A stretch of DNA of 64,000 nt from an uncultured Candidatus Binatia bacterium (lineage in GTDB: Bacteria; Desulfobacterota; Binatia; Bin18): assembly GCA_958296235.1 (NCBI GenBank), contig OY282457.1:124001-188000 (forward strand), in the 5' to 3' direction. The notes beneath the pieces were generated by a model. That model had not been told where the DNA came from and ran no database searches. It saw only the letters and a program-made list of their open reading frames with translations. Positions 45,725 to 57,257 of the stretch are shown here, piece after piece (position 1 is the stretch's first letter; each line of letters begins with the position of its first letter). A program made the position numbers and the translations under genes.

Positions 45725-47522
45725 GGTTTATCCCCGCGTGTGCGGGGGAACCTCAAGGTTATATCCAGCGTAATGGACAGGCTGCGGTCTATCCCCGCGT
45801 GTGCGGGGGAACCCTTCCGCGCCGGGTTCCGCCCGCCTGTCTTGACGGTCTATCCCCGCGTGTGCGGGGGAACCTGACGTGTCGATATACTCGAACATCT
45901 TTTTCAGGGTCTATCCCCGCGTGTGCGGGGGAACCCCTAGGAAAGCATTGTTAGTCTCTACCCCGTCAGGTCTATCCCCGCGTGTGCGGGGGAACCCTAT
46001 GGTGGCTGCTGAGAGACTTTATTCCTGGGGGTCTATCCCCGCGTGTGCGGGGGAACCGCTCAGCAACAAACTCTTCCACGCTCGGCAAGAGGTCTATCCC
46101 CGCGTGTGCGGGGGAACCCCCAGCCGTGCCGGGCAGGCTTCGCCCCCAACAGGTCTATCCCCGCGTGTGCGGGGGAACCTGGGGCTGATATGTCTCCTCG
46201 CCTTATTGACCCGGTCTATCCCCGCGTGTGCGGGGGAACCCCATTCTTCTTTGAGACCAGCTTTTTCCCCAAGGGTCTATCCCCGCGTGTGCGGGGGAAC
46301 CGCGCTAAGGACTGCTCACAGTTGTCGAATGCTAGGTCTATCCCCGCGTGTGCGGGGGAACCCGTAAGGCTAAGGTTTACCTTAAAAAAGGCGTAGGTCT
46401 ATCCCCGCGTGTGCGGGGGAACCGGCGCTAACCGGGGCGGCGCTAACCGGGGCGGCGGGTCTATCCCCGCGTGTGCGGGGGAACCATCTATACCCCTTTT
46501 ACCCTTTTTTTAGGGCGGGGTCTATCCCCGCGTGTGCGGGGGAACCGGCTTCCTCCTTTGTGATCCATAGTGCGCAATAGGTCTATCCCCGCGTGTGCGG
46601 GGGAACCGCCTTGCCCCGCATCGACCCCCTCGGTCCCAAAGGTCTATCCCCGCGTGTGCGGGGGAACCCGGGCTGTATCCTCCTCGGCGGGCTCGACGAG
46701 GGGTCTATCCCCGCGTGTGCGGGGGAACCTAGCCGGTCTGGCCGGGGTTCCCCACCGGCGGCGGTCTATCCCCGCGTGTGCGGGGGAACCCGTCGCAGCC
46801 GGTAGCCTCCAGCAGTCAATGGAGGTCTATCCCCGCGTGTGCGGGGGAACCGCCTTGACGAATTTGCTCTTGATCTTCGAGTCCGGTCTATCCCCGCGTG
46901 TGCGGGGGAACCGACGGGAACGAGTTGATTCTTGATCCCGATGAGGGTCTATCCCCGCGTGTGCGGGGGAACCTCCATTTCCTCTTCTTCTCCTCTATCC
47001 TCCTCAGGTCTATCCCCGCGTGTGCGGGGGAACCCCATTGCGGATTCTATACCACAATAAGTCAATCGGTCTATCCCCGCGTGTGCGGGGGAACCACGTC
47101 GACGCGCGTCAAAGGACGATAGGACAACGGTCTATCCCCGCGTGTGCGGGGGAACCCTGTAGCCTTTCTCGTTCGTCCCGACTGGAAAAGGTCTATCCCC
47201 GCGTGTGCGGGGGAACCGCTTCTGCGTTAAGGAATGATGCTCTTCCATCAGGTCTATCCCCGCGTGTGCGGGGGAACCGATTTGAAACCGTCAATAACCG
47301 GCAAGTCAAAGGGTCTATCCCCGCGTGTGCGGGGGAACCTAGCTTGAACTTGCTCCCATACAGCCCTAACCAGGTCTATCCCCGCGTGTGCGGGGGAACC
47401 GTTTGATGACCTAGATGTCACAACTAGAGAGTAGGTCTATCCCCGCGTGTGCGGGGGAACCCCGCGCGCGTTGGGGATGATTCGGTCTGGCCGCGGTCTA
47501 TCCCCGCGTGTGCGGGGGAACC
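45725..47522 (-). CRISPR. Type I-E CRISPR array, 30 repeats and 29 spacers
   Basis: A 28-nt repeat read on the plus strand as GGTCTATCCCC ... GCGGGGGAACC. On the transcribed minus strand it starts GGTTCCCCC and ends GGGGATAGACC, giving an AUAGACC handle like the AUAAACCG of E. coli I-E. The period is 61 nt throughout except for one 62-nt unit (repeat 12 to 13, at 46396 and 46458), so spacers are 33 nt, one of 34. Transcription runs leftwards from the cas2 side. The leader-distal repeat (45725) has one change (TTTATCC), the usual ageing of a terminal repeat. By my count the first spacer base on the crRNA strand is T 13, C 8, G 8 and A 0 times. Confidence 0.99.
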
Positions 47523-47603
47523 TCTACTGAGTTTATTAGACTTTTTGCCCCTATAAGTCTATTCTCCGGCGTGTAGAGGGACGCCGTTCAGATTATCAAA
47601 GAG
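47523..47603 (-). promoter_or_regulatory. CRISPR leader with an in-register degenerate repeat
   Basis: This 81-bp AT-rich stretch separates cas2 from the first intact repeat. Within it, 47556-47585 (AGTCTATTCTCC ... GAGGGACGCC) is a decayed repeat that starts exactly 61 bp from the first intact repeat at 47495. The sequence between (47523-47555) is spacer-length, AT-rich, and ends with a T-run. The decayed copy keeps GTCTAT and GCGTGT and can still pair TTCTC with GAGGG. The region should hold the leader promoter and adaptation signals. Confidence 0.7.
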
Positions 47604-47909
47604 CTATTTGTCCTGAGTCTGGCGGGTTCGCCGCGACAAAATGAGACCCTCTTGGTCCACTAACTCGACCGGTGGCGACCCCAAGACTCGCACGCCTTGT
47701 CCCCCTGGCTCACGTGGGTCCTGCCACGTCATGACAATAGATTGGCCTCCCAACTCAAGGAACCATTCCTCTATCACCGTCCATATTCGCTCTCTGACGC
47801 TACGAGACAACCTCGGGGCAGTGTACACCCCAGGAGCAATCTCAATCATGCAGGAGGCCAGAAACCCACGGGTACGCGGGGCAACGTCACGTGTCACTAC
47901 TACTGTCAT
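47604..47909 (-). CDS. cas2: CRISPR-associated endonuclease Cas2, subtype I-E
   Basis: 101 aa. MTVVVTRDVAPRTRGFLASCMIEIAPGVYTA and RIWTVIEEWFLELGGQSIVMTW are typical of the Cas2e (CT1978) group. It is the dimeric centre of the Cas1-Cas2 integrase that captures new spacers. Its start lies 23 bp inside the 3' end of cas1, so translation is coupled. The last gene before the leader, it matches the standard I-E order. Confidence 0.95.
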   Translation of the reverse strand: MTVVVTRDVAPRTRGFLASCMIEIAPGVYTAPRLSRSVRERIWTVIEEWFLELGGQSIVMTWQDPREPGGQGVRVLGSPPVELVDQEGLILSRRTRQTQDK

Positions 47910-48768
47910 CGTCGTCCAGCAATTTTATTATCCGATCAATCATTTTCGAGATGAGCCTGGTTTCTCTGAATCGCCGACCCGCCAATCGTCGGACATGCCG
48001 TTCGAGCGGTATCCGGCCATTGTTGTGATGCTGGCCCACTGCCTCAAATGCGACCGGGATGGTGACTTCAGTTCGGTAGAGGTCGGCAATGTCCAGACAA
48101 AAGGCGATAGACGCATCCTCGTGAATAAAGCCCAGGGGCGGCAGTGTTCCGGTTGCGGCTACGGCAACAATAGCCGCGGCTTCGATGGCCGTGGCCGCGT
48201 GGTTGATGGCTTGGTTCGGGGCGTCGGCGATATCCGGGTTTTGTCGGTCGTAGCGGCGTCCATGCCACTCAATGCCATACTTCTGCGCCAGCAGGCTGTA
48301 GGCCGTTTTCATCCGCGCGCCTTCGATCCCTCGCAGGATGGATATGTCCTGTTCGGGCAGCACCTCACCCAAACGCCAAGCGTACATGCGCCGGGCCAGG
48401 CGAAGTCGTGAGCGCATATCGTTCCAGAGTTTTGCCTGGCGGCGCGCTCTTCTCGAATCGTTCGGCCCGAAAGGTTGGGCGCTATACATCCGTACACCGT
48501 CTTCCCCAACAGCGACGAGGCCGGTCCCGTGACGGGCGAGAAGACGGAACACGTCGTGGCTCACGGTTGAGCCCGGTCCCAGCAGGATGAACGAGATATT
48601 CTGAAACGGAATGGCGTAATCGCCGGCAGCCATATCCGGCGACCCGGCGGTCCGAAAATGCAGCGTGCCATCCTCCACGGTGAGATTCCCACGCGCCAGC
48701 CACAGCAGACCGTGGCGGTCGGCGTGCGGAATCCGCGCGGCCTCAAGTCCTAATCTTCCTTTCAGCAC
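47887..48768 (-). CDS. cas1: CRISPR-associated integrase Cas1, subtype I-E
   Basis: 293 aa, GTG start after AAGGGGA. The metal-binding residues of Cas1 are a Glu in LRGIEGARMK, a His in LGFIHEDAS and an Asp in FCLDIADLYR, corresponding to E. coli E141, H208 and D221. It catalyses spacer integration with Cas2. A tail rich in Asp/Ser (LLDDDDSSSDT) is present. A 66-bp gap separates it from cas6e, enough for a separate promoter. Confidence 0.96.
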   Translation of the reverse strand: MLKGRLGLEAARIPHADRHGLLWLARGNLTVEDGTLHFRTAGSPDMAAGDYAIPFQNISFILLGPGSTVSHDVFRLLARHGTGLVAVGEDGVRMYSAQPFGPNDSRRARRQAKLWNDMRSRLRLARRMYAWRLGEVLPEQDISILRGIEGARMKTAYSLLAQKYGIEWHGRRYDRQNPDIADAPNQAINHAATAIEAAAIVAVAATGTLPPLGFIHEDASIAFCLDIADLYRTEVTIPVAFEAVGQHHNNGRIPLERHVRRLAGRRFRETRLISKMIDRIIKLLDDDDSSSDT

Positions 48769-48834: not shown

Positions 48835-49578
48835 CTAGGCCGGCCGCAGGAGCAACATCCCGTAGCCGTAGGCGCGGTGCCGTCCAATACCTTGGGTCAG
48901 CAAGGCGGTGAAGGCAGCGGCATCAGTAATGGTCAGGACGCCCCGCATGATCGCGTCCGGCCCTTCGCTGTGACAGGCACGAAGCTTACGCACGGCGCGA
49001 GTACGCTGAAATGAGCGTAACTCCGCGGACTCCAACCTCGCGCCGCCTCTGCGGTCGAACTGGTCGGACAACCACTCGCGGTACACTTCTTCACGGCTGT
49101 ACGGCATCTCCTTTTTCGGGTACTGCCTTGCCTTCAGTTGGAAGGCGTCCCGTTCCCTGCCAGGGCGGCCTTCCGCGTTGCGGCTGCGACGCACGACGGG
49201 ACGAATCCGCGTCTCAAAGCCCAGCCGCTTGCCTTCCCGCCACTCCGTCGGCATTGGTTTGCTGTTGATGGTGTGACCGGGGAAGATTTTTGCCTGCAAG
49301 GGATCGGCGTATATGCCTGCCGATTCACGCAAAGCGTCAGCCTCGGTGTGTCCGTAGCCGTACAAAACGCCGCATGCCGCACCGCGCGGCACAATCAAGC
49401 GAAAGGGCTTGGGGGCCAGGTCGCCGAAACATTCGGTGAGCAGACAGTGCATGGCGTGGTCGGCGTCCTGAAGGCGCTTGCCGCCCATCCAGCGCTGAAA
49501 ATTGCGTACCCTGATGTCGGCGCGGATCAGTTGAAGCGGGGCCACCAGCGAATCGGTTGATGTGGCAGTATCCATCAT
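48835..49578 (-). CDS. cas6e: CRISPR RNA endoribonuclease Cas6e (CasE/Cse3)
   Basis: 247 aa from ATG 49578, preceded by AAGGACGAG; the longer open frame to 50022 only overlaps cas5. Two ferredoxin-like folds are expected. The N-terminal PLQLIRADIRVRNFQRWMGG and the C-terminal glycine-rich loop GIGRHRAYGYGMLLLRP are family features. It cuts the repeat hairpin to release crRNAs and stays bound to the 3' stem in Cascade. A catalytic His is expected near the N-terminus; H29 (DADHAMHCLL region) is a candidate. Confidence 0.92.
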   Translation of the reverse strand: MMDTATSTDSLVAPLQLIRADIRVRNFQRWMGGKRLQDADHAMHCLLTECFGDLAPKPFRLIVPRGAACGVLYGYGHTEADALRESAGIYADPLQAKIFPGHTINSKPMPTEWREGKRLGFETRIRPVVRRSRNAEGRPGRERDAFQLKARQYPKKEMPYSREEVYREWLSDQFDRRGGARLESAELRSFQRTRAVRKLRACHSEGPDAIMRGVLTITDAAAFTALLTQGIGRHRAYGYGMLLLRPA

Positions 49579-49579
49579 T

Positions 49580-50326
49580 TTACTCGTCCTTTGCCGTGGA
49601 AAACCGGCTGTGTTCGATAGCGCCTTCGCATACCAGTCGCCCGCCGCCGTGCAGCCCGGATGTCCAGTTACGCTGGTCGGTGAGCATATAGCTGCGACTG
49701 GGAGTGACCTCTGCCTCGCCTTCACCGTCCGGCCAGAGCGCCCGTATGGAGTCCAAATGCGGTGCGTCAGCGGACAGAGGTACGGCCAGCAGCGCTGCCA
49801 GGGCTGTGTCGCCCTGGCTGAAATCGCCGAACAGGGAGCCCGACGGCAGGCACGGCTTGCGTCCGATGAACAGCGGGCGGGCCGGTTCCTGCAAAGCCGT
49901 GGCCAAGTTATCCAGCGTCGGGTTCTCCTCCTCTGGCTCCAGACGCAATGCAACGCGCACCCGCATATCGGTAAAATAGTCTCGGTGGCGTAAGTGGGGC
50001 GCGTCATATGTAGCCGCCCCACCAGCGCGACCTTCAGGGACTCCTCGCGTAGTCCAGCCCTGGTCGTTGCCGCCTAACTGTGCCGTCTGAAAATCGGTGA
50101 GCCTCGCCCTAGTCGCTGGTTCGCGGTCAATACGTGCGGCGAACACCAGCCGGTCTTGCAGGCGTTGGTGCAACTCCCGCTCAATCCGTCGCCAGCCCAG
50201 GGCGTTGGCCAACAGCCCGGTCAGCATGGAGGCCGCCGGAAACCAGCGGATAACGCCGTAATTGTCGATAGTTTCCCCGCCGAAGGCCATGAGTGGAGCT
50301 TCGAGAGACACAATCAGATGGCGCAT
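49580..50326 (-). CDS. cas5: Cascade subunit Cas5e (CasD)
   Basis: 248 aa. RHLIVSLEAPLMAFGGETIDNYGVIRWFPAASMLTGLLANALGW is the Cas5e N-terminus; the FxxPxxSxxxG-like pattern and the C-terminal GEAEVTPSRSYMLTDQRNWTSGLHGG fit the family. It caps the crRNA 5' handle and abuts Cse1. It lies 2 bp after cas7 and 1 bp before cas6e, tightly packed in the operon. Confidence 0.93.
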   Translation of the reverse strand: MRHLIVSLEAPLMAFGGETIDNYGVIRWFPAASMLTGLLANALGWRRIERELHQRLQDRLVFAARIDREPATRARLTDFQTAQLGGNDQGWTTRGVPEGRAGGAATYDAPHLRHRDYFTDMRVRVALRLEPEEENPTLDNLATALQEPARPLFIGRKPCLPSGSLFGDFSQGDTALAALLAVPLSADAPHLDSIRALWPDGEGEAEVTPSRSYMLTDQRNWTSGLHGGGRLVCEGAIEHSRFSTAKDE

Positions 50327-50328
50327 CG

Positions 50329-51498
50329 CTACACCGCCTCACCGTTCAGCACTGCCCGTGACGCCCACGCCGCCAGGTCGTCAAGGCATAGACGTTCGGC
50401 GTTAGGAACGTCACAATCCTCAACCGACATCAGCCGTCGGGCCTCCTTTGCGCCGTAAGCAGCATCCAGTTTGCCTAAGTATTGAGATAGGGCGCTGGTA
50501 GCGACGGCGACCTGAGCCTTAACCGGGCTGCGAAACGCATTCGCCAGGCTGCGCGGTTGGCGTGTCCCCGCCTCAATCAACATCAGGTCAGCGCAGGCAT
50601 AAGGCGCGGTGGAACCGAGTTTTGCGCCGGGCGACACAGTGGCAATCAGATGCACCAGGTGGTCAACCACCTTGCCTGTGAGGTCTTTATCCGCGCTTTC
50701 CCAGGCGCTGGCAGCACAGCCGGTCAGGTTGGACACCAGCCCCGGCACGTCCACGACAACATAGCCATAAAATAGCCCTGCGGTCAGTTCCATGTCGCCG
50801 ATGTGGGCCGCGCCGGCGTCTTCGTCATTCTGCTGCAAGTCATCCACCACCGAGAAGTAGTCGCTCTCGCTTTCTTCCTGATGCACAGTGAAGGCGTGAG
50901 CGACATGAATGGCGGCATCAATGTTGGCCGCAGGGTCGGATGTCACCATGCGTCCGAACAGCGCCCCTACGAGTCCGCCGGGGAGGTCGGCACTCTGTCG
51001 CATTGCGCGGAAATTGTTGCCTTCGCCTTTGCGCGTATGAAACAGGTCTTTCGCAGCAGTCTCGGCGGCTTCGGCGTCATCACGATGTTTGGTGCAAATG
51101 GCGGCGGCTTTATCCCGCAAATACTCCACTTCGGGCCAGCCCAGCAGCAGGGGTTGGCGACCGCTTTCCGAATCGCCTTTGTCGCCGTATACGCCTTTGT
51201 TGAAAGCAGTTTCTACCGCGTCCAGCACTTCGTTAGGAATGTCGCCTGTGTCCCGCAGCGGCTGAATGACTTTTCGCTCAACAACATTTCGGGAGCGCAC
51301 CGCGTCGGGCTCAATGGCAGTCAGCGCAAACTCGTCCTCGGCCACGCGCCAGTGTCGTTTGAGGCACTGCGACGAGATGCGGGTACGCACCGCGTCACCG
51401 AAGGGCATCCGCTTGGCCAGACCGCTGTCGTCGCGGTTCAGCAGCGCGGCGGGATAGGAATGAAGGGTGTGGATTTGCAGAAAACGTGGTGTGGGCAT
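50329..51498 (-). CDS. cas7: Cascade backbone subunit Cas7e (CasC/Cse4)
   Basis: 389 aa; AAAGGAG lies 8 nt before the ATG. RFLQIHTLHSYPAALLNRDDSGLAKRMPFGDAVRTRISSQCLKRHWR is the highly conserved Cas7e opening, where the Arg/Lys residues contact crRNA. ADLPGGLVGALFGRMVTSDPAANIDAAIHVAHAFTVH and SVVDDLQQNDEDAGAAHIGDMELTAGLFYGYV follow. Six copies form the Cascade filament along the guide. A 51-bp gap separates it from cse2. Confidence 0.96.
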   Translation of the reverse strand: MPTPRFLQIHTLHSYPAALLNRDDSGLAKRMPFGDAVRTRISSQCLKRHWRVAEDEFALTAIEPDAVRSRNVVERKVIQPLRDTGDIPNEVLDAVETAFNKGVYGDKGDSESGRQPLLLGWPEVEYLRDKAAAICTKHRDDAEAAETAAKDLFHTRKGEGNNFRAMRQSADLPGGLVGALFGRMVTSDPAANIDAAIHVAHAFTVHQEESESDYFSVVDDLQQNDEDAGAAHIGDMELTAGLFYGYVVVDVPGLVSNLTGCAASAWESADKDLTGKVVDHLVHLIATVSPGAKLGSTAPYACADLMLIEAGTRQPRSLANAFRSPVKAQVAVATSALSQYLGKLDAAYGAKEARRLMSVEDCDVPNAERLCLDDLAAWASRAVLNGEAV

Positions 51499-51549
51499 GG
51501 TGAAAAACTCCTTTGTCTTCTTTCGCTGTTTGTGGATACAGATGCGTCT

Positions 51550-52155
51550 TTACTCGTCGGTCGATTGGGAACTGCGATACTTGGCCTGGTAATAGGCTCG
51601 GGCGATATTCCTGCGGATGTCTTCGGTCCGTTCTTCGTCATAGCCGTCGTTGAGAATAAAGCGGGCCATTTCACTCCAATTAAAAGGCTGGTTGGCAGAG
51701 GCCAGCATCCGAAACAGGCGTGCCAGCAGCGTGCGGAGAATAGAGCCACGTGCCGTCAGCAGCCGATTCAGGCGCGACTCGCTGTAGTACCCGGATTCCC
51801 CCCGTTCGGATTCCCCGCCCAGAAACAGCGCCCGGCCAACTGGTATGATGCCGTTGTGAGCGGTACGGTTTTCGCCGCCCGCGGTCGGGGTCATGAGCGC
51901 GATGCCGTGCAAAATGAGCGCCCATTTGGCTTCCACGGTGGGGTTGCCCAGCAAGTTTCTGCTGGCCATGAGCCGCCAGAACACTGCTGAGTCGGGCGCG
52001 TCCGGGTCCATGCGGCGCAACGCAGCCAAGTCGCCGCGTTGGAAGCCCTCGCCGGCCATCTGCTTGGCGAAGCCGGCAGCAATAACGCCCCAGGACTGGC
52101 GTTCGCCGTCTGCCTTTTGCGCCTCGGATGGAGTAACGTTTGGTGTGTGGGTCAC
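51550..52155 (-). CDS. cse2: Cascade small subunit Cse2 (CasB)
   Basis: 201 aa, GTG start overlapping the cse1 stop by one base. Helical small-subunit features are GDLAALRRMDPDAPDSAVFWRLMASRNL, ENRTAHNGIIPVGRALFLGG, SRLNRLLTARGSILRTLLARLFRMLASANQPFNWSEMARFIL and IARAYYQAKY. It dimerises along the Cas7 filament and stabilises the R-loop. The very tight junction with cse1 shows co-translation. Confidence 0.93.
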   Translation of the reverse strand: MTHTPNVTPSEAQKADGERQSWGVIAAGFAKQMAGEGFQRGDLAALRRMDPDAPDSAVFWRLMASRNLLGNPTVEAKWALILHGIALMTPTAGGENRTAHNGIIPVGRALFLGGESERGESGYYSESRLNRLLTARGSILRTLLARLFRMLASANQPFNWSEMARFILNDGYDEERTEDIRRNIARAYYQAKYRSSQSTDE

Positions 52156-53741
52156 TATGCACCTCCTTCGTGGGTATCGAAAAGAAATGGCAGTCCGTTG
52201 TTGCCTCGTAGACGACCTTCAAATAACCCTTCGGCGTTGACGCGGGCACGGTAACGATGGATAGCCGGGCAGGGCAGGGAATCCTCGGCGGCCTGCAAAG
52301 TACGGCGAGCGTGGTCGATTACACCATCCGTGCCGTTCATCAGCCATGTGTTACGGACTGTCTGCCGTTCAGCATCAGTGGCCTCAAATTCGGTTTGTAA
52401 ATCCTCGAAGAAATTCGTATCAACGATCTCATCCAGCTTGTTCAGCCAGGGACGAGCCAGGGCGCGATGTTCGGGACTCACTTTAGCGCTGTCGCCTCGG
52501 GCGGCGAACACCTGGATGGCGTGGCTGAGAATGCGCTGGATGGCGCTAACCTGCTCGATACGCTCCCGTGCAATCTTGCCCAAGTCGTCCACCGCCGTGG
52601 TTCGCCGGGTCATGGCTCTGCCGACCGTTTTGGGCCGTAGAGGGATGATGCGTTCGTGATAGCCTTCTGTTTTGCCCTGACCGCGAACCATGCCGCGTGC
52701 CACCAGGTACATAGGTTTCGCAGAGCGTTGCTCCATCGGGAGCGGACGTAATAGAGGTGGCCACTGCCAATCTTCTGACGTGAGGTAGTCAGTGACCCGT
52801 TTGTAGGTAAAGCCGCCGGCAGCCAGTGTCAGGGGCAGACCGTCGCGTTTCGTGTTGATAGGAACCCACGGATCTCCAGTACGCCCTTTCAGGTCTTTCC
52901 CTGCAATCCGTGCCGCTTTGGAACTCGTTCTGATTGCGCGCAAGCGGCCTCCCGCGTCGGAGCGCAGTCGTATCCTGCGGCAGACCTCAATATAGAACGG
53001 GTCAAGATGGTTCAGCAGCAGCATTTCTGTGGGCGTTCCGTCCCACGGCAATGTCCATAGCAAATCTGCGCCGCGATCAGACATTTGATACTCGTCCATC
53101 AGTGTCAAGCGATGCCCCAGCAGAGCAGTGATGTCGCGCCGAATGTGGGCTCCCAATCTTTCGGAAGGTGTCAGGGTGAAGGCCGTCCGGCTGCCTAGCC
53201 CACCGTTCATCCGGGAGATGCCATAATTCCCCGCGCCGCTGAACCCCTCCATCGTTTGTAGTGTAACCAGTGCGAACAGCCATTCGTCAGGAGCGGCCTG
53301 CGTCGCCACAGCGGCTTTCAGATCGTGGTTCTTGGAGGTGACGAGCATGTCCAGTTCGTCGGGTGTGGCGACAGTGCTCTTGTAATCTTTCTCACGTTCC
53401 GTAGAGGAGGCCGGGGGCTGCATGAAGGCGGGTTTAGTGATGTCGTCAACTACAAGCTGCCAGGGCTCGTCGTCGGGATAGCCTGGCGTCAACGCGCGAA
53501 TAATACGTAGCCACTCCACGGCATTTTGGGGCGGCTCGGCCAGCCCGGCCCGGTGCATCGCCATTACGCCTAACTGCCCCAGAAAGGCGTGCCCGGCGTG
53601 GCGCTGATGGGGCCGGAGTGCGGGAAAGGCGTCTACTTTGTCGGCCATTAACATGGCGTATACCTCAGGAAGGGACGCCTCGACTCGGGAGCCGTCCGAG
53701 GCGTTCGTGCGAATAACCGGTTCGTTCAATATATTGAGCAT
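52155..53741 (-). CDS. cse1: Cascade large subunit Cse1 (CasA/Cas8e)
   Basis: 528 aa from ATG 53741, which has AAGGA 10 nt upstream and begins with the family-like LNILNEPVIRTN; ATG 53798 and GTG 53816 are in frame but add a non-homologous leader. Hallmarks are FPALRPHQRHAGHAFLGQLGVMAMHRAGL, FSGAGNYGISRMNGGLGSRTAFTL and LLWTLPWDGT. Cse1 recognises the PAM and recruits Cas3. It is the first Cascade gene; a 58-aa ORF lies between it and the predicted promoter at 54043-54071. Confidence 0.93.
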   Translation of the reverse strand: MLNILNEPVIRTNASDGSRVEASLPEVYAMLMADKVDAFPALRPHQRHAGHAFLGQLGVMAMHRAGLAEPPQNAVEWLRIIRALTPGYPDDEPWQLVVDDITKPAFMQPPASSTEREKDYKSTVATPDELDMLVTSKNHDLKAAVATQAAPDEWLFALVTLQTMEGFSGAGNYGISRMNGGLGSRTAFTLTPSERLGAHIRRDITALLGHRLTLMDEYQMSDRGADLLWTLPWDGTPTEMLLLNHLDPFYIEVCRRIRLRSDAGGRLRAIRTSSKAARIAGKDLKGRTGDPWVPINTKRDGLPLTLAAGGFTYKRVTDYLTSEDWQWPPLLRPLPMEQRSAKPMYLVARGMVRGQGKTEGYHERIIPLRPKTVGRAMTRRTTAVDDLGKIARERIEQVSAIQRILSHAIQVFAARGDSAKVSPEHRALARPWLNKLDEIVDTNFFEDLQTEFEATDAERQTVRNTWLMNGTDGVIDHARRTLQAAEDSLPCPAIHRYRARVNAEGLFEGRLRGNNGLPFLFDTHEGGA

Positions 53742-53829
53742 CAGTCGTTCATCCTTGACGGAGTTTTGGATCGAGAACGGCGCGTTGGTCCGGTAAGTCA
53801 TAAGCCATGAAAGCACCTTCGCTGAGGCG

Positions 53830-54006
53830 TCACGCTCTTTGCGCCTCCTGATTTTCGGACATCAGCGCAATCGTTGTTAGGAGCGCTTCCTTCTGGTATC
53901 GGAGAGCATCACACTCGGTTTCCATCGAATCAAGTTCCTTCTCGACTGCGCACAGTTGGATTCTGAGGGTATGCAGGATATGGTTAGTGTCACTTGGCTC
54001 TTTCAT
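53830..54006 (-). CDS. 58-aa coiled-coil ORF, first gene behind the Cascade promoter
   Basis: ATG 54006 is preceded by AAGGAG with 8-nt spacing; an ATG at 54024 overlaps that site and is less likely. The protein (MKEPSDTNHILHTLRIQLC..., ending MSENQEAQRA) is mostly one predicted helix with a heptad-like Leu/Ile pattern and two Cys. It shares no motif with known Cas proteins or with anti-CRISPRs I know. It is the first ORF after the promoter that the crRNA-like RNA would target. It could be a leader peptide, a small Cascade accessory or a toxin-like factor. Confidence 0.55.
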   Translation of the reverse strand: MKEPSDTNHILHTLRIQLCAVEKELDSMETECDALRYQKEALLTTIALMSENQEAQRA

Positions 54007-54031
54007 TGGTCCTATCTCCTTCATTGCGGTG

Positions 54032-54042
54032 GTAGTGCAAAG
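54032..54042 (-). promoter_or_regulatory. Seed-length protospacer of the crRNA-like RNA at the Cascade promoter
   Basis: The minus strand reads CTTTGCACTAC here, identical to bases 2-12 of the mini-array spacer (54123-54133). The three bases 5' of it on the same strand are AAT, the end of the -10 box and a plausible AAN-type I-E PAM. Matching stops after 11 bases, apart from scattered identities. Such seed-only pairing lets Cascade bind without triggering Cas3 cutting. The site covers the expected transcription start at about 54036. Confidence 0.75.
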
Positions 54043-54071
54043 ATTGTAGATAATTGTGGGATGTTGGTCAA
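54043..54071 (-). promoter_or_regulatory. Sigma70-type promoter of the small ORF and Cascade operon
   Basis: On the minus strand: TTGACC (-35, 54071-54066), 17 bp, TACAAT (-10, 54048-54043). Each box differs from consensus by one base, and the spacing is optimal. The start would be near 54036, giving a short 5' UTR with AAGGAG before the ATG at 54006. It should drive the 58-aa ORF, cse1 and the downstream cas genes. Confidence 0.75.
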
Positions 54072-54081
54072 CCCAAGTCGA

Positions 54082-54109
54082 TTGAACCCCCAAAGCGAAA
54101 GAATGCAAT
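54082..54109 (+). promoter_or_regulatory. Candidate promoter of the crRNA-like RNA
   Basis: TTGAAC (54082-54087), 16 bp, TGCAAT (54104-54109) on the plus strand. The predicted start at about 54115-54117 falls on the first bases of the AUAGACC handle. The RNA could thus carry its own 5' handle without an upstream repeat cut, which would explain why the left repeat keeps only its 3' part. The -10 box matches consensus at four of six bases, so this is a weaker call than the Cascade promoter. Confidence 0.5.
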
Positions 54110-54110
54110 T

Positions 54111-54182
54111 GGGGATAGACCGCTTTGCACTACGACGCTTGGGCGTCTAGCGCAAATTCCCCCGCACACGCGGGGATAGTTG
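54111..54182 (+). ncRNA. Degenerate single-spacer mini-CRISPR, CreR/CreA-like crRNA-resembling RNA
   Basis: Left half-repeat GGGGATAGACC (54111-54121), a 33-nt spacer (54122-54154), then a right repeat (54155-54182) keeping TTCCCCCGCACACGCGGGG plus ATAG but with altered ends (AA- and -TTG). Both sit in the exact 61-nt register of the main array, on the opposite strand to it. The right repeat keeps the full Cas6e hairpin, so a crRNA-like guide could be made. Spacer bases 2-12 match the DNA next to the Cascade promoter's -10 box. CreA and CreR RNAs of other type I systems have this half-repeat / seed-match design and repress a toxin gene or the cas operon. Confidence 0.75.
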
Positions 54183-54191
54183 CCGGTAACG

Positions 54192-54232
54192 CAGACCGGG
54201 AGCCCAGTGCATACTTTCGTAGGAATGACTGG
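54192..54232. repeat. Degenerate relative of the GTCATTCC intergenic repeat
   Basis: Read on the minus strand it resembles the left half of the element at 4400-4479 (CCAGTCATTCCT, then a CTGGGCTCCCGG-like segment). It fills part of the 120-bp space between the crRNA-like RNA and the DUF433 gene. No gene is seen in that space. Confidence 0.45.
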
Positions 54233-54301
54233 ATTAGGTGGAAGTGACGTGAGCAGTGTACAGGAGCGCGCAAAAATCTTACAGATGAACTGGGAAGGAC
54301 C

Positions 54302-54535
54302 ATGCAACCGGACTATACGGAAATTATCACAGTCGAGCCGGGCAAACGCGGCGGGAAACCCTGCATTCGTGGTCTGCGCATCACGGTCTATGACGTTCTG
54401 GAGTATCTGGCGTCTGGGATGACTGAGCCTGAAACTCTGGCCGATTTTCCCGACCTGACCCGTGAGGATATCCGGGCGTGTCTGGCATTTGCCGCTGAGC
54501 GGGAGCGTCGCCTGGTAGCCATTCCGCCAGAATGA
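54302..54535 (+). CDS. DUF433 antitoxin-like protein, orphan
   Basis: 77 aa; GGAAGGA precedes the ATG. The DUF433 signature is clear: GKRGGKPCIRGLRITVYDVLEYLASGMTEPETLADFPDLTREDIRACLAFAAERE. It is a winged/HTH-like antitoxin that normally pairs with a DUF5615 PIN-like toxin starting MRLL-x-D-E-N and overlapping by ATGA. Here the overlapping ATG exists (54532) but reads only Met-Arg-Leu-Leu and then a stop (TAG 54544-54546), and cas3's end follows 30 bp on. The toxin has been lost. Confidence 0.85.
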   Translation: MQPDYTEIITVEPGKRGGKPCIRGLRITVYDVLEYLASGMTEPETLADFPDLTREDIRACLAFAAERERRLVAIPPE

Positions 54536-54546
54536 GACTGTTGTAG
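54532..54546 (+). pseudogene. Remnant start of a DUF5615-type toxin gene
   Basis: ATG-AGA-CTG-TTG-TAG overlaps the DUF433 stop in the usual ATGA manner. Met-Arg-Leu-Leu is the common opening of DUF5615 toxins. The frame ends at once and the next gene (cas3, convergent) ends at 54576, so the rest of the toxin has been deleted. Confidence 0.5.
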
Positions 54547-54575
54547 CCGGCGAAACAGCGCGGCGAGTATGCTGC

Positions 54576-57257
54576 CTATACCCGGCGCAGTCCCAGCCGG
54601 TCGTACCGGAAACGGGATTCACCCATGCAGCATATAAAACCGCGGTCTTCCAGGTCGGGAACGACCGGCTGATCGTCGGTCGCTTCGCCGGTCAGATGGG
54701 GGGCCATATGGTGGGGTATCGTCAGCCGTGTAATATCCCCTGCGCCGAACGGACTTGGCACTGGTGGGTCTAACTCCGCTTCAATGCCCTCATCACCCAG
54801 TCGAGTGCGTATGCGTTCTTCGTCACTCCCGAATACAACCTCACGGTTGTCATCGCCAAAAAAGGATTTGTCGTAACGAACGAGGGCGCTCCGCGCGGTC
54901 AGGGTTCCGGCCAAGGTTGCCCCGGTCATACGATTGGCGTGGATTTGCCAGGCGTCGCCCAGTTCGTCGGTTATGGCTTTCAGGGCGTCGGGGTGGGTCG
55001 TTCGTTCCACGAGTTCCCGATTCATTGCCGGGATACGCCATTCCGGGTAGTGGAGAATCAGCCGCCGTGTGGCCTCAAGCACACGCAAGTCCTCGTAGAC
55101 GAACCCGTGCGGTCCCAGGCCATTCCGACCGGGACCTTTGGACAGCAGGGGCGAGAGGTCATCCCCATCCGGCATCAGCACAATGCAGGTGGGTGTGGCA
55201 TAGCCAGGGGGCCGGTCCTCTCGTTGGTGGCGGTGCAGCCGACCGATGCGCTGAAGCAGCACGTCCATCGGACACAGGTCGGTAATCAACAGGTCCGCGT
55301 CTATGTCCAGCGATTGCTCCAAGGTCTGCGTCCCCACAATAATGCGGCCGCCGGGCGGACGGTCTTTGCCGATCTGCTCCTCGACTGCTTTGTCCAGCAC
55401 GAGCCGGTCTTCCCGGGCAAACCTGCCGTGGTGGAGGGTGAGAATGCCGCGACAGGCGTAGAGCAGGCCACTTTCGCTCTGGTCAATCATTGCCTCCACC
55501 GTCTGCTGGGTATCAATGGCGTATTGCACGGTATTCCGTACCACCAGAACCTTGGCCCCGGCGCGGGCCGCGTGCAGGGCACGTTGGGCCACCTGGGCGA
55601 AATCTCCTATGTCCGAGATGGCCTCAACCCGAACCGTTTTGTTCTTGCCGTTGCCATTTACAGCAATAGTATTTTCGCCGGTACGGGTCGTGACCGTGGG
55701 GTAGGGGGTCTCGATAGCGCCGTTCAAAGACGGCGGGTTACCGACAACCGACGAGGACCCGCCGGACAACCAGCGAGAGCGGGCCACGGAGCCGAGCGTG
55801 GCAGACATCAGGAGGGCATACCCGCCAGCCCCGATATGGACACGTAGTAAGTCTTCGAGAATGACGCGCATATAGGGGTCGGAGGCGTGAACCTCGTCTA
55901 CCACCAGCAAATTGCGCGACAGGCAGGCGGCGCGCATATGGGCGTGCTTGACTTTGAGGGTCGCCATCATCGCCTGATCTACGGTGCCCACGGCAATCTG
56001 GGCTGCCAGGTAGCGCTTGGCGCTCTCGGCAGCCCAGCGGCGTTTTTCGGTCAGAATGTCGGGGTGATCGTCCCACCACACCTCGTAGTTCGGCAGATGC
56101 TTGCCCGTAGCCGCTCCGGCGCGGACATAGCCGGGGACCGCCAGCACGGACTCTGGGATAACTTCTTCGGGGAACAGCTTGTCAATGAATTGCGTGATGC
56201 GCCCGTGCATCTGGCTGGCTGCCGCACGGGTAGGCAGGGCAAAATACAATCCATCCACCCGCCGGGCTCGATACAAATGGGCAAATCGCCACAGTGCGGC
56301 CTCGGTTTTGCCGGAGCCGGTTTCTGACTCGATTATGACCAGACGCTCGTCCAGCGGAACCGTTATTGCCGCCTGCTGAATAGGGTTGGGCCTTGCGTTG
56401 GGGATACTGAACAGGGTGTCAAAATCCGGCAGGGCAGGCAGGGCGTGAAAAACGCTCCGCTGGCTGTCGATATTCAACCCGATTTCCGCGACCGCGCGCT
56501 GGGCGTTGTGCCGGGCAGTCTGCATATAGTCGTCACGGGGCTCAGCGCAGAACGGGAAGTGGATTTCATCGGAACCAATCCAGTCGGCCAGCATGCACAG
56601 GCCCAGAAACATATGCTGAAAAGCGGGATCGGACGGGAGAAATGGCCCACCGGCTGCAAAGGCTGCTTGGAACCAGTCTCGCACCAGCCGACCGATGCGT
56701 TCTACGCCATGCCGGGGATGCAGTGCGCCAAAAGGCTTCCAGATTCGGGAGTTCTTGAACCGGGGTTCTGCCATATTCAGTGGCCGGCCGTGGTGGGACA
56801 GCGCAGCCACAAACAAGCCGCAGACCGTCTCCCCGTCACAATCGTCCCAAGACTCGGTAGCGTCCCACCACCAGCCCAGGGCGTTGAAGAACCAGTCCGC
56901 GGTTTCGGTATCGTCGCAGTTCAGCACCGGCGTCAGGTCGGCGATATGTCCGGCGGAGCGTGGGGGGCGCGTATCTGTGGGAAAGTCGGATTCCTGCCAG
57001 ATTCGTGTTTGAAAACCGACGTTGACCTTGCCGATGTCGTGTAAGGCCGCCAGGACTGCCAGCCGCGCCGCAGTCACCGGAGCAATATCGTTCAGCTTGC
57101 CGGTCTTTGCCAGGCGCTGTCGGATGGTCGGCTGGGCCAGCAGGGCCTCAAAGCAGGCTCCCACATCGGCCATGTGGTGTTCCAGCAGGTGAATGCGCTG
57201 TGGGTTTTCGCGGTCGGATTTTGCCCAGAAGACCTGAGTATATGCTGCTGGTGGCAT
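54576..57257 (-). CDS. cas3: CRISPR-associated helicase-nuclease Cas3, subtype I-E
   Basis: 893 aa. The N-terminal HD nuclease shows LLEHHMADVGACF, LAALHDIGKVNVGFQ (the HD pair) and ALSHHGRP. The SF2 helicase carries IESETGSGKTEAALWR (motif I), LVVDEVHASDPYM (motif II, DEVH), LLMSATLGS (III), VGTQTLEQSLDIDADLLITDLCP (V) and LLQRIGRLHRH (VI). It nicks and degrades target DNA recruited by Cascade. The gene starts 3 bp after the stop of a truncated GST gene and is separated from cse1 by a 0.8-kb insert with the crRNA-like RNA, so its expression may not follow the Cascade promoter. Confidence 0.96.
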   Translation of the reverse strand: MPPAAYTQVFWAKSDRENPQRIHLLEHHMADVGACFEALLAQPTIRQRLAKTGKLNDIAPVTAARLAVLAALHDIGKVNVGFQTRIWQESDFPTDTRPPRSAGHIADLTPVLNCDDTETADWFFNALGWWWDATESWDDCDGETVCGLFVAALSHHGRPLNMAEPRFKNSRIWKPFGALHPRHGVERIGRLVRDWFQAAFAAGGPFLPSDPAFQHMFLGLCMLADWIGSDEIHFPFCAEPRDDYMQTARHNAQRAVAEIGLNIDSQRSVFHALPALPDFDTLFSIPNARPNPIQQAAITVPLDERLVIIESETGSGKTEAALWRFAHLYRARRVDGLYFALPTRAAASQMHGRITQFIDKLFPEEVIPESVLAVPGYVRAGAATGKHLPNYEVWWDDHPDILTEKRRWAAESAKRYLAAQIAVGTVDQAMMATLKVKHAHMRAACLSRNLLVVDEVHASDPYMRVILEDLLRVHIGAGGYALLMSATLGSVARSRWLSGGSSSVVGNPPSLNGAIETPYPTVTTRTGENTIAVNGNGKNKTVRVEAISDIGDFAQVAQRALHAARAGAKVLVVRNTVQYAIDTQQTVEAMIDQSESGLLYACRGILTLHHGRFAREDRLVLDKAVEEQIGKDRPPGGRIIVGTQTLEQSLDIDADLLITDLCPMDVLLQRIGRLHRHQREDRPPGYATPTCIVLMPDGDDLSPLLSKGPGRNGLGPHGFVYEDLRVLEATRRLILHYPEWRIPAMNRELVERTTHPDALKAITDELGDAWQIHANRMTGATLAGTLTARSALVRYDKSFFGDDNREVVFGSDEERIRTRLGDEGIEAELDPPVPSPFGAGDITRLTIPHHMAPHLTGEATDDQPVVPDLEDRGFICCMGESRFRYDRLGLRRV

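Follow-up and report, generated by a model that had tools for sequence, protein, structure and literature searches.

An uncultured Candidatus Binatia bacterium carries, between cas2 and the first intact repeat of a CRISPR array, a stretch of leader DNA that resembles a worn copy of the repeat. Is this stretch a genuine old repeat, and if so, what would keep it inside a leader? The window, which is the whole stretch of 64,000 nucleotides that was analysed, sits in a 4.62-Mb chromosome and contains a CRISPR-Cas locus on the minus strand in the order cas3, cse1, cse2, cas7, cas5, cas6e, cas1, cas2, leader and array. Eight genes from cas3 to cas2e in one locus, a repeat of 28-29 bp and a period of 61 bp place the system in type I-E. 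In a profile search, the genes of the locus except cas3 exceeded the cut-off of their own I-E models, and cas3 passed cas3_core and cas3_HD, not PRK09694. The features on which the analysis rests are as follows.

45725..47522, minus strand: CRISPR array of 30 repeats of 28 bp, with the leader at its right-hand end
47495..47522, minus strand: repeat 1, the first intact repeat and probable insertion site of new spacers
47523-47603, minus strand: leader of 81 bp, between the cas2 stop (47604) and repeat 1
47523..47555, minus strand: 33-bp leader segment from the worn repeat to repeat 1, with an inner run of 23 invariant in four genomes
47537..47561, minus strand: inverted repeat TAGACTT-N11-AAGTCTA, from the end of the worn repeat into the 33-bp segment
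47556..47585, minus strand: degenerate repeat within the leader, reading AGTCTATTCTCCGGCGTGTAGAGGGACGCC on the plus strand
47567..47586, minus strand: inverted repeat CGGCGT-N8-ACGCCG, a predicted substitute for the hairpin of the intact repeat
47593..47603, minus strand: boxA-like element CTCTTTGATAA immediately after cas2 (motif match with at most one mismatch)
47604..47909, minus strand: cas2 (Cas2e; TIGR01873)
47887..48768, minus strand: cas1 (Cas1e; TIGR03638)
48835..57257, minus strand: cas6e, cas5, cas7, cse2, cse1 and cas3 of the same locus, by profile matches

Register of the worn repeat

The array itself is undecayed, with 29 of its 30 repeats identical and one mismatch in the last; 28 of the 29 spacers measure 33 bp and the remaining one 34 bp. 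On the minus strand repeat 1 reads GGTTCCCCCGCACACGCGGGGATAGACC, and the leader runs from the boxA-like CTCTTTGATAATCTGAAC through the worn copy GGCGTCCCTCTACACGCCGGAGAATAGACT and the 33 bp to repeat 1. The element after cas2 is presumably a boxA, a sequence that serves antitermination in CRISPR leaders. The first-pass annotation had described a degenerate repeat in exact register with the array, separated from it by an AT-rich stretch of spacer length, and both descriptions were confirmed: the distance from the start of the copy to repeat 1 is 61 bp, and the gap of 33 bp has the length of a spacer and a G+C content of 33%, against 58-60% in the window.

At the spacing of 61, 17 of 28 ungapped positions agree with the repeat. 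When spacings of 58-64 were allowed, a fraction of about 0.0004 of 5,000 single-base shuffles of the leader equalled the copy. When the leader was shuffled by dinucleotides 20,000 times, 26 of the shuffles attained the copy's gapped score of 11. Could a GC-rich stretch of leader resemble the repeat by chance? A score of 11 is indeed not rare, being reached on either strand by 20 of 1,550 overlapping 81-bp stretches of the window (some of which overlie an ectopic repeat near 54157) and matched at many distances upstream of 84 surveyed arrays on both strands; considered by gapped score and without its register, the window's own copy appears only suggestive. Against chance stand the spacer-length spacing and the same orientation, and a reverse-complement control yielded 0 of 84 leaders in register below p 0.05. 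Chance similarity is further disfavoured because same-genus relatives carry the copy, two of them with a better match to the repeat than the window: G002 and G006 score 15, which 0 of 20,000 shuffles attained for each, and G003 scores 13. We consider chance resemblance very improbable. Judged from these sequences, the copy at 47556-47585 is a real old CRISPR repeat that this genus now carries as a fixed component of its leader.

Relatives and the survey of type I-E leaders

Of the seven genomes in the genus, four carry a cas1 of this type, and the same four carry the leader and the copy; the other three have no such cas1 and no such leader (leader matches at E 0.17 or worse). Conserved sequence at a constant position upstream of repeat 1 was found at 4/4 same-genus loci with this cas1, where the copy and the following 33 bp are shared with little variation and 33 bp separate the copy from repeat 1 in every genome, so the earlier suggestion that the copy is part of the leader holds. 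Relatives lacking any repeat-like sequence at this spot had been named as a sign of chance similarity: within the genus no such absence was seen, but nearly all wider relatives are without the copy.

The copy reads TACACG in all four genomes. The arrays of G002, G003 and G006 have GTACACG repeats, whereas the window's own array has GCACACG, and the Cas1 tree nests the window's genome within the genus, between G006, which branches off earlier, and G002 plus G003 (support 94/80). As the copy matches the relatives' T and its genome is nested in this tree, it seems to have kept the genus's apparently older letter while its own array changed. The shared T might also be a coincidence or a double change, because the outgroup repeats (L022, L016) read CACACG.

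Further out, the Cas1 proteins of L022 and L023 in the Entotheonella clade are sister to the genus (support 100/99). L022 shows a 16/28 in-register match at spacing 58 (p 0.0018), with a free-placement score that 1,003 of 20,000 shuffles reached, and L023 has no in-register copy. Those Cas1-tree relatives (57-66% identity) whose leaders were readable have neither a clear copy nor the leader motif GGTRGA and still hold arrays, and such a copy is therefore not generally needed. For weak leader matches elsewhere in the family (E 0.1-0.9), five contexts were read, and these showed no array-like repeats by eye. Two side observations concern G003. One in-frame TGA was reported inside the cas1 match of its locus L012; the stretch of the G003 array that was read contains 72 repeats. 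At L139 of the same genome, the last array repeat is followed by a worn one of a different I-E type (GTCTTCCCCACGCATGTAGGGGTGAACCG), perhaps the trace of a second CRISPR system.

At which repeat are new spacers taken up? Each of the four arrays has the conserved 33 bp directly against repeat 1 and, beyond that repeat, a first spacer unlike those of the other three; in none has the copy been duplicated by insertion. Because the first spacers differ and the copy is unduplicated in these natural arrays, we infer insertion at repeat 1; the earlier idea that acquisition now starts at the second repeat is in effect supported. In the stretches compared (30, 72, 3 and 33 repeats), which for G002 and G006 are limited by arrays running into contig ends, no spacer pair agreed at 24 or more letters, and among the four arrays, two of them cut by contig ends, there were no shared old spacers to prove array order. 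The copy differs from a functional array repeat in that its palindrome is lost and its adjoining 33 bp is common to four genomes. By this comparison the 33 bp is conserved leader and no live spacer. A viral origin of the segment was considered and set aside: no sequence in viral_contigs matches its invariant core of 23 bases exactly, and the single viral match to the core of the copy, with no repeats in the 351 bases read, was taken as chance.

To place this leader among others, type I-E loci were gathered by Cas2 and Cas1 searches, and 84 leaders were kept. The 84-leader counts cover loci with a detected array and include some close relatives of each other. Eleven loci duplicating another were skipped before the counts (L001-L008, L019-L021); also left out were nine further repeats of another locus, three loci of unclear orientation (L068, L070, L104) and one with a short upstream region (L117), and L012 was dropped as a duplicate of the leader end of L010 though the copy is present there (score 13). 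At shuffle p <=0.01, 4/84 leaders (L009, L010, L011 and L116) had a repeat-like stretch within 100 bp, oriented as the array repeats are; L066 came next at p 0.012, making 5/84 at 0.05, and the opposite strand of the same leaders gave 0 at 0.01 and 1 at 0.05. Gapped scores of at least 15 within 150 bp were confined to L010, L011 and L116, with L092 and L052 matching farther upstream. With the spacing fixed at 58-64, seven of the 84 fell below p 0.05, the best being L009, L011, L010 and L022 (p 0.0004-0.0018). Thus a repeat copy is no general rule of I-E leaders, since only 4/84 carry one at p <=0.01. Clear copies appear to be rare by these scores, found among the 84 in the genus and in one unrelated leader, with the sister Entotheonella locus weakly in addition.

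The unrelated leader, L116, belongs to a genome of the class of G532 and has a solitary repeat, almost intact, that lies roughly 88-116 bp ahead of repeat 1, directly after the apparent cas2 stop and before boxA; this repeat could be a cut site parting the cas mRNA from the pre-crRNA. Like the window's copy, it is single, lies upstream of repeat 1 and stands outside the array; unlike that copy, it precedes boxA, is nearly intact and is out of spacer register. Elsewhere in the survey, the last 45 bp of the leaders at L013, L074 and L014 contain perfect inverted repeats of 8-9 bp just before repeat 1 whose letters differ and which may represent a covarying leader hairpin; in the same family, L076 and L078 have no perfect inverted repeat at that place.

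Possible roles of the leader copy

Two motifs recur in the surveyed leaders. BoxA-like motifs (<=1 mismatch) were present in 53 of the 84 (1.2 expected) and recur at fixed distances, e.g. -40, -58, -97 and -120. GGTRGA was present in 29 of the 84 (1.4 expected), 28 of these 29 at -53 to -55, and we infer that it is the integrase-anchoring motif of I-E leaders. The genus leaders L009, L010 and L011 possess the boxA-like motif and lack GGTRGA (best 4/6 letters), also near -54, where the anchoring motif would be looked for; the copy covers -54, the position of the phased GGTRGA in 28/84 surveyed leaders. None of the 29 GGTRGA leaders is among the loci in the Cas1 tree. The remaining earlier suggestion, an ancestral anchor, is conceivable given the copy's position over -54, but relatives with related Cas1 have neither the copy nor this motif.

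In E. coli, I-E leaders hold an upstream integrase-anchoring sequence and an IHF site. Here, too, a DNA element lies some 35-60 bp before repeat 1, the leader adjoins cas2, and the genome has genes for both IHF subunits. The locus differs in that the element is repeat-like, GGTRGA is absent and there is no clear IHF site in the leader (best 7/9, shuffle p 0.30-0.44). By the PRK models, IHF alpha scored 125 bits (cut-off 111) and beta 120.5 (cut-off 115), and the matches of both subunits fall short of the TIGR cut-offs. For type I-F, the available text of PMC12259127 describes that IHF folds the leader and that the integrase recognises the leader.

Our preferred reading, which we hold tentatively and at somewhat less than an even chance, is that an old repeat was captured by the leader and kept as one of its elements. 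A repeat-plus-spacer unit beside the old leader would have been frozen, the ex-spacer may have turned into the end of the leader by which repeat 1 is marked, and the worn repeat would be retained as a leader DNA element, most probably an upstream site at which the Cas1-Cas2 integrase docks or is positioned, with IHF perhaps bending the DNA between this site and repeat 1. Loss of the processing hairpin would also prevent crRNA production from the leader segment. A related version, which we regard as unlikely, has the leader absorb a repeat-spacer unit such that the ex-spacer marks insertion and the ex-repeat serves as a second Cas1-Cas2 dock that accepts no spacers.

The variation among the four genomes bears on whether the copy is kept at all, or is a neutral fossil, an ex-first repeat left behind when insertion moved on and conserved through recent ancestry and nearby leader elements. 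The copy is far more degenerate than any repeat of its own array, it has lost its hairpin, and near relatives manage without it, all of which such a fossil would explain. Yet in the four-genome alignment the copy varies at 4 of 30 columns (three substitutions and one gap), about three times less than third codon positions (114/286 in cas1 and 35/95 in cas2, pooled 149/381; Fisher p 0.005), in a test that has little power with four close sequences. The 33-bp segment varies at 5/33 columns (p 0.008), the boxA part at 2/18 and the whole leader at 11/81 (p 5e-6), so that the copy is about as constrained as the remaining leader, not more, and conservation spans the whole leader. On balance the neutral fossil is rather unlikely.

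RNA structure offers another account of the same conservation. The first-pass annotation had noted that TTCTC...GAGGG in the copy can still pair. These letters may pair, but the hairpin predicted for the copy is instead CGGCGT-N8-ACGCCG; the copy has lost the CCCCGC-GCGGGG hairpin of the repeat. In RNA, this CGGCGU-N8-ACGCCG stem would stand after boxA and before a second stem (TAGACT-N13-AGTCTA in L010 and L011), and the two together might tune antitermination or shield the leader from Cas6e, so that it yields no crRNA. Its 6-bp stem is identical in L009, L010 and L011, boxA-like motifs are common in I-E leaders, as the survey found, and the predicted fold of the leader with repeat 1 contains two stems plus the repeat stem (z -2.05). 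However, the leader RNA alone folds no better than shuffles (z -0.73), the copy alone reaches z -1.13 in its own form and -0.49 in the relatives' form, and the sole stem change, in L012, breaks the innermost pair. We judge an RNA element distinctly unlikely.

The possibility that the worn repeat, the 33 bp and repeat 1 form a CreA/CreR-like RNA steering Cascade to a promoter is scarcely credible. It draws on an ectopic CreA/CreR-like pair in the same locus at 54112-54179 and on six of the last eight repeat letters being kept in the copy (AATAGACT against GATAGACC). Against it, the hairpin needed for cutting the 5' handle is lost, and the genomes differ at the seed end of the 33 bp but are identical at its far end. 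The window's seed pattern matches only itself in its own genome, as does that of G006; the seeds of G002 and G003 have 3 and 2 further exact matches in theirs, all five inside stop-free stretches of 264-750 codons and one beside AAT, and a reversed control pattern was about equally frequent. The best match within 400 bp of the copy covers 7-8 of 10 letters. A CreA/CreR guide was rejected for the leader copy, no promoter target pairing with positions 1-5 and 7-11 having been seen. Like the worn repeats described in the available text of PMC8501985 and PMC12737573, the copy lies near a cas operon and outside the growing array; it differs from them in that its 33 bp has no visible promoter target and the copy lies inside the leader.

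The preferred reading, a captured repeat serving as a docking site, can also be set beside adaptation in Streptococcus. Mutants of the leader-anchoring site in S. pyogenes insert spacers beside a repeat other than the old first one. Ectopic acquisition in type II-A (PMC5338259, PMC7999890) resembles the present case in that insertion occurs beside a repeat that is not the original first one; it differs in CRISPR type, and here the state would be old and fixed throughout the genus.

An ectopic repeat pair between cas3 and cse1

The same locus holds a second set of worn repeats, which is weightier than the leader copy and whose putative job is clearer.

54112-54179, plus strand: ectopic worn repeat pair between cas3 and cse1
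53830-54108, minus strand: small ORF between a promoter-like site and cse1, with no NCBIfam match

Two pieces of repeat make up the pair, a worn end (GGGGATAGACC) and a core (TTCCCCCGCACACGCGGGGATAG), with a stretch of 34 nt between them. Its guide CTTTGCACTACGAC matches CTTTGCACTACCAC at 54042-54029 (minus strand), with AAT before the match, and this target lies just downstream of a promoter-like TTGACC-N17-TACAAT (by eye) that precedes the small ORF and cse1. Two further loci show the same arrangement: in G002 (L149) the guide TCTTACGGTACGAT matches TCTTAGGGTACTAT, and in G527 (L150) the guide CTACGCGCTACCAT matches CTACGAGCTACAAT. The 14-letter pairing has mismatches only at positions 6 and 12, in the window's genome only at 12, and its letters differ at each locus. 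Shuffled guides equalled the pairing in 1, 0 and 0 of 2,000 trials at the three loci. A scan of 24 regions returned these three pairs and no others, a reversed-guide control returned none, and neither G003 nor G006 of the same genus has such an ectopic pair. The Cse1 search found cse1 sequence in 23/23 fetched regions, mostly from near its start and in L182 from residue 116.

According to the available text of PMC8501985, letters 1-5 and 7-11 of CreA pair upstream of creT and changes at 6 and 12 are tolerated; that of PMC12737573 describes CreR guides that repress the cas operon. In the window, positions 1-5 and 7-11 of the ectopic guide pair with a promoter-like site that has a PAM-like triplet. 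Since this pairing pattern is that of CreA/CreR as given in these texts, the pair at 54112-54179 fits that kind and looks like a putative CreR (or CreA) gene. In L150 a relative of the small ORF precedes cse1 (50% over 52 aa, E 1e-13), and L147-L149 gave none with a convincing E-value; the ORF might encode an accessory protein or a guarded toxin. Three loci in which different guide letters pair with their own promoter region argue that I-E systems use self-control.

The leader copy bears on how an integrase singles out the first repeat and on the origin of leaders. No report of repeat copies captured by I-E leaders was found among the open-licence matches listed. A leader with an old repeat visible in it at a distance of one unit would be a natural example of a leader that has shifted by a single unit, and if the leader did capture this unit, leaders could grow by domesticating units of the array.
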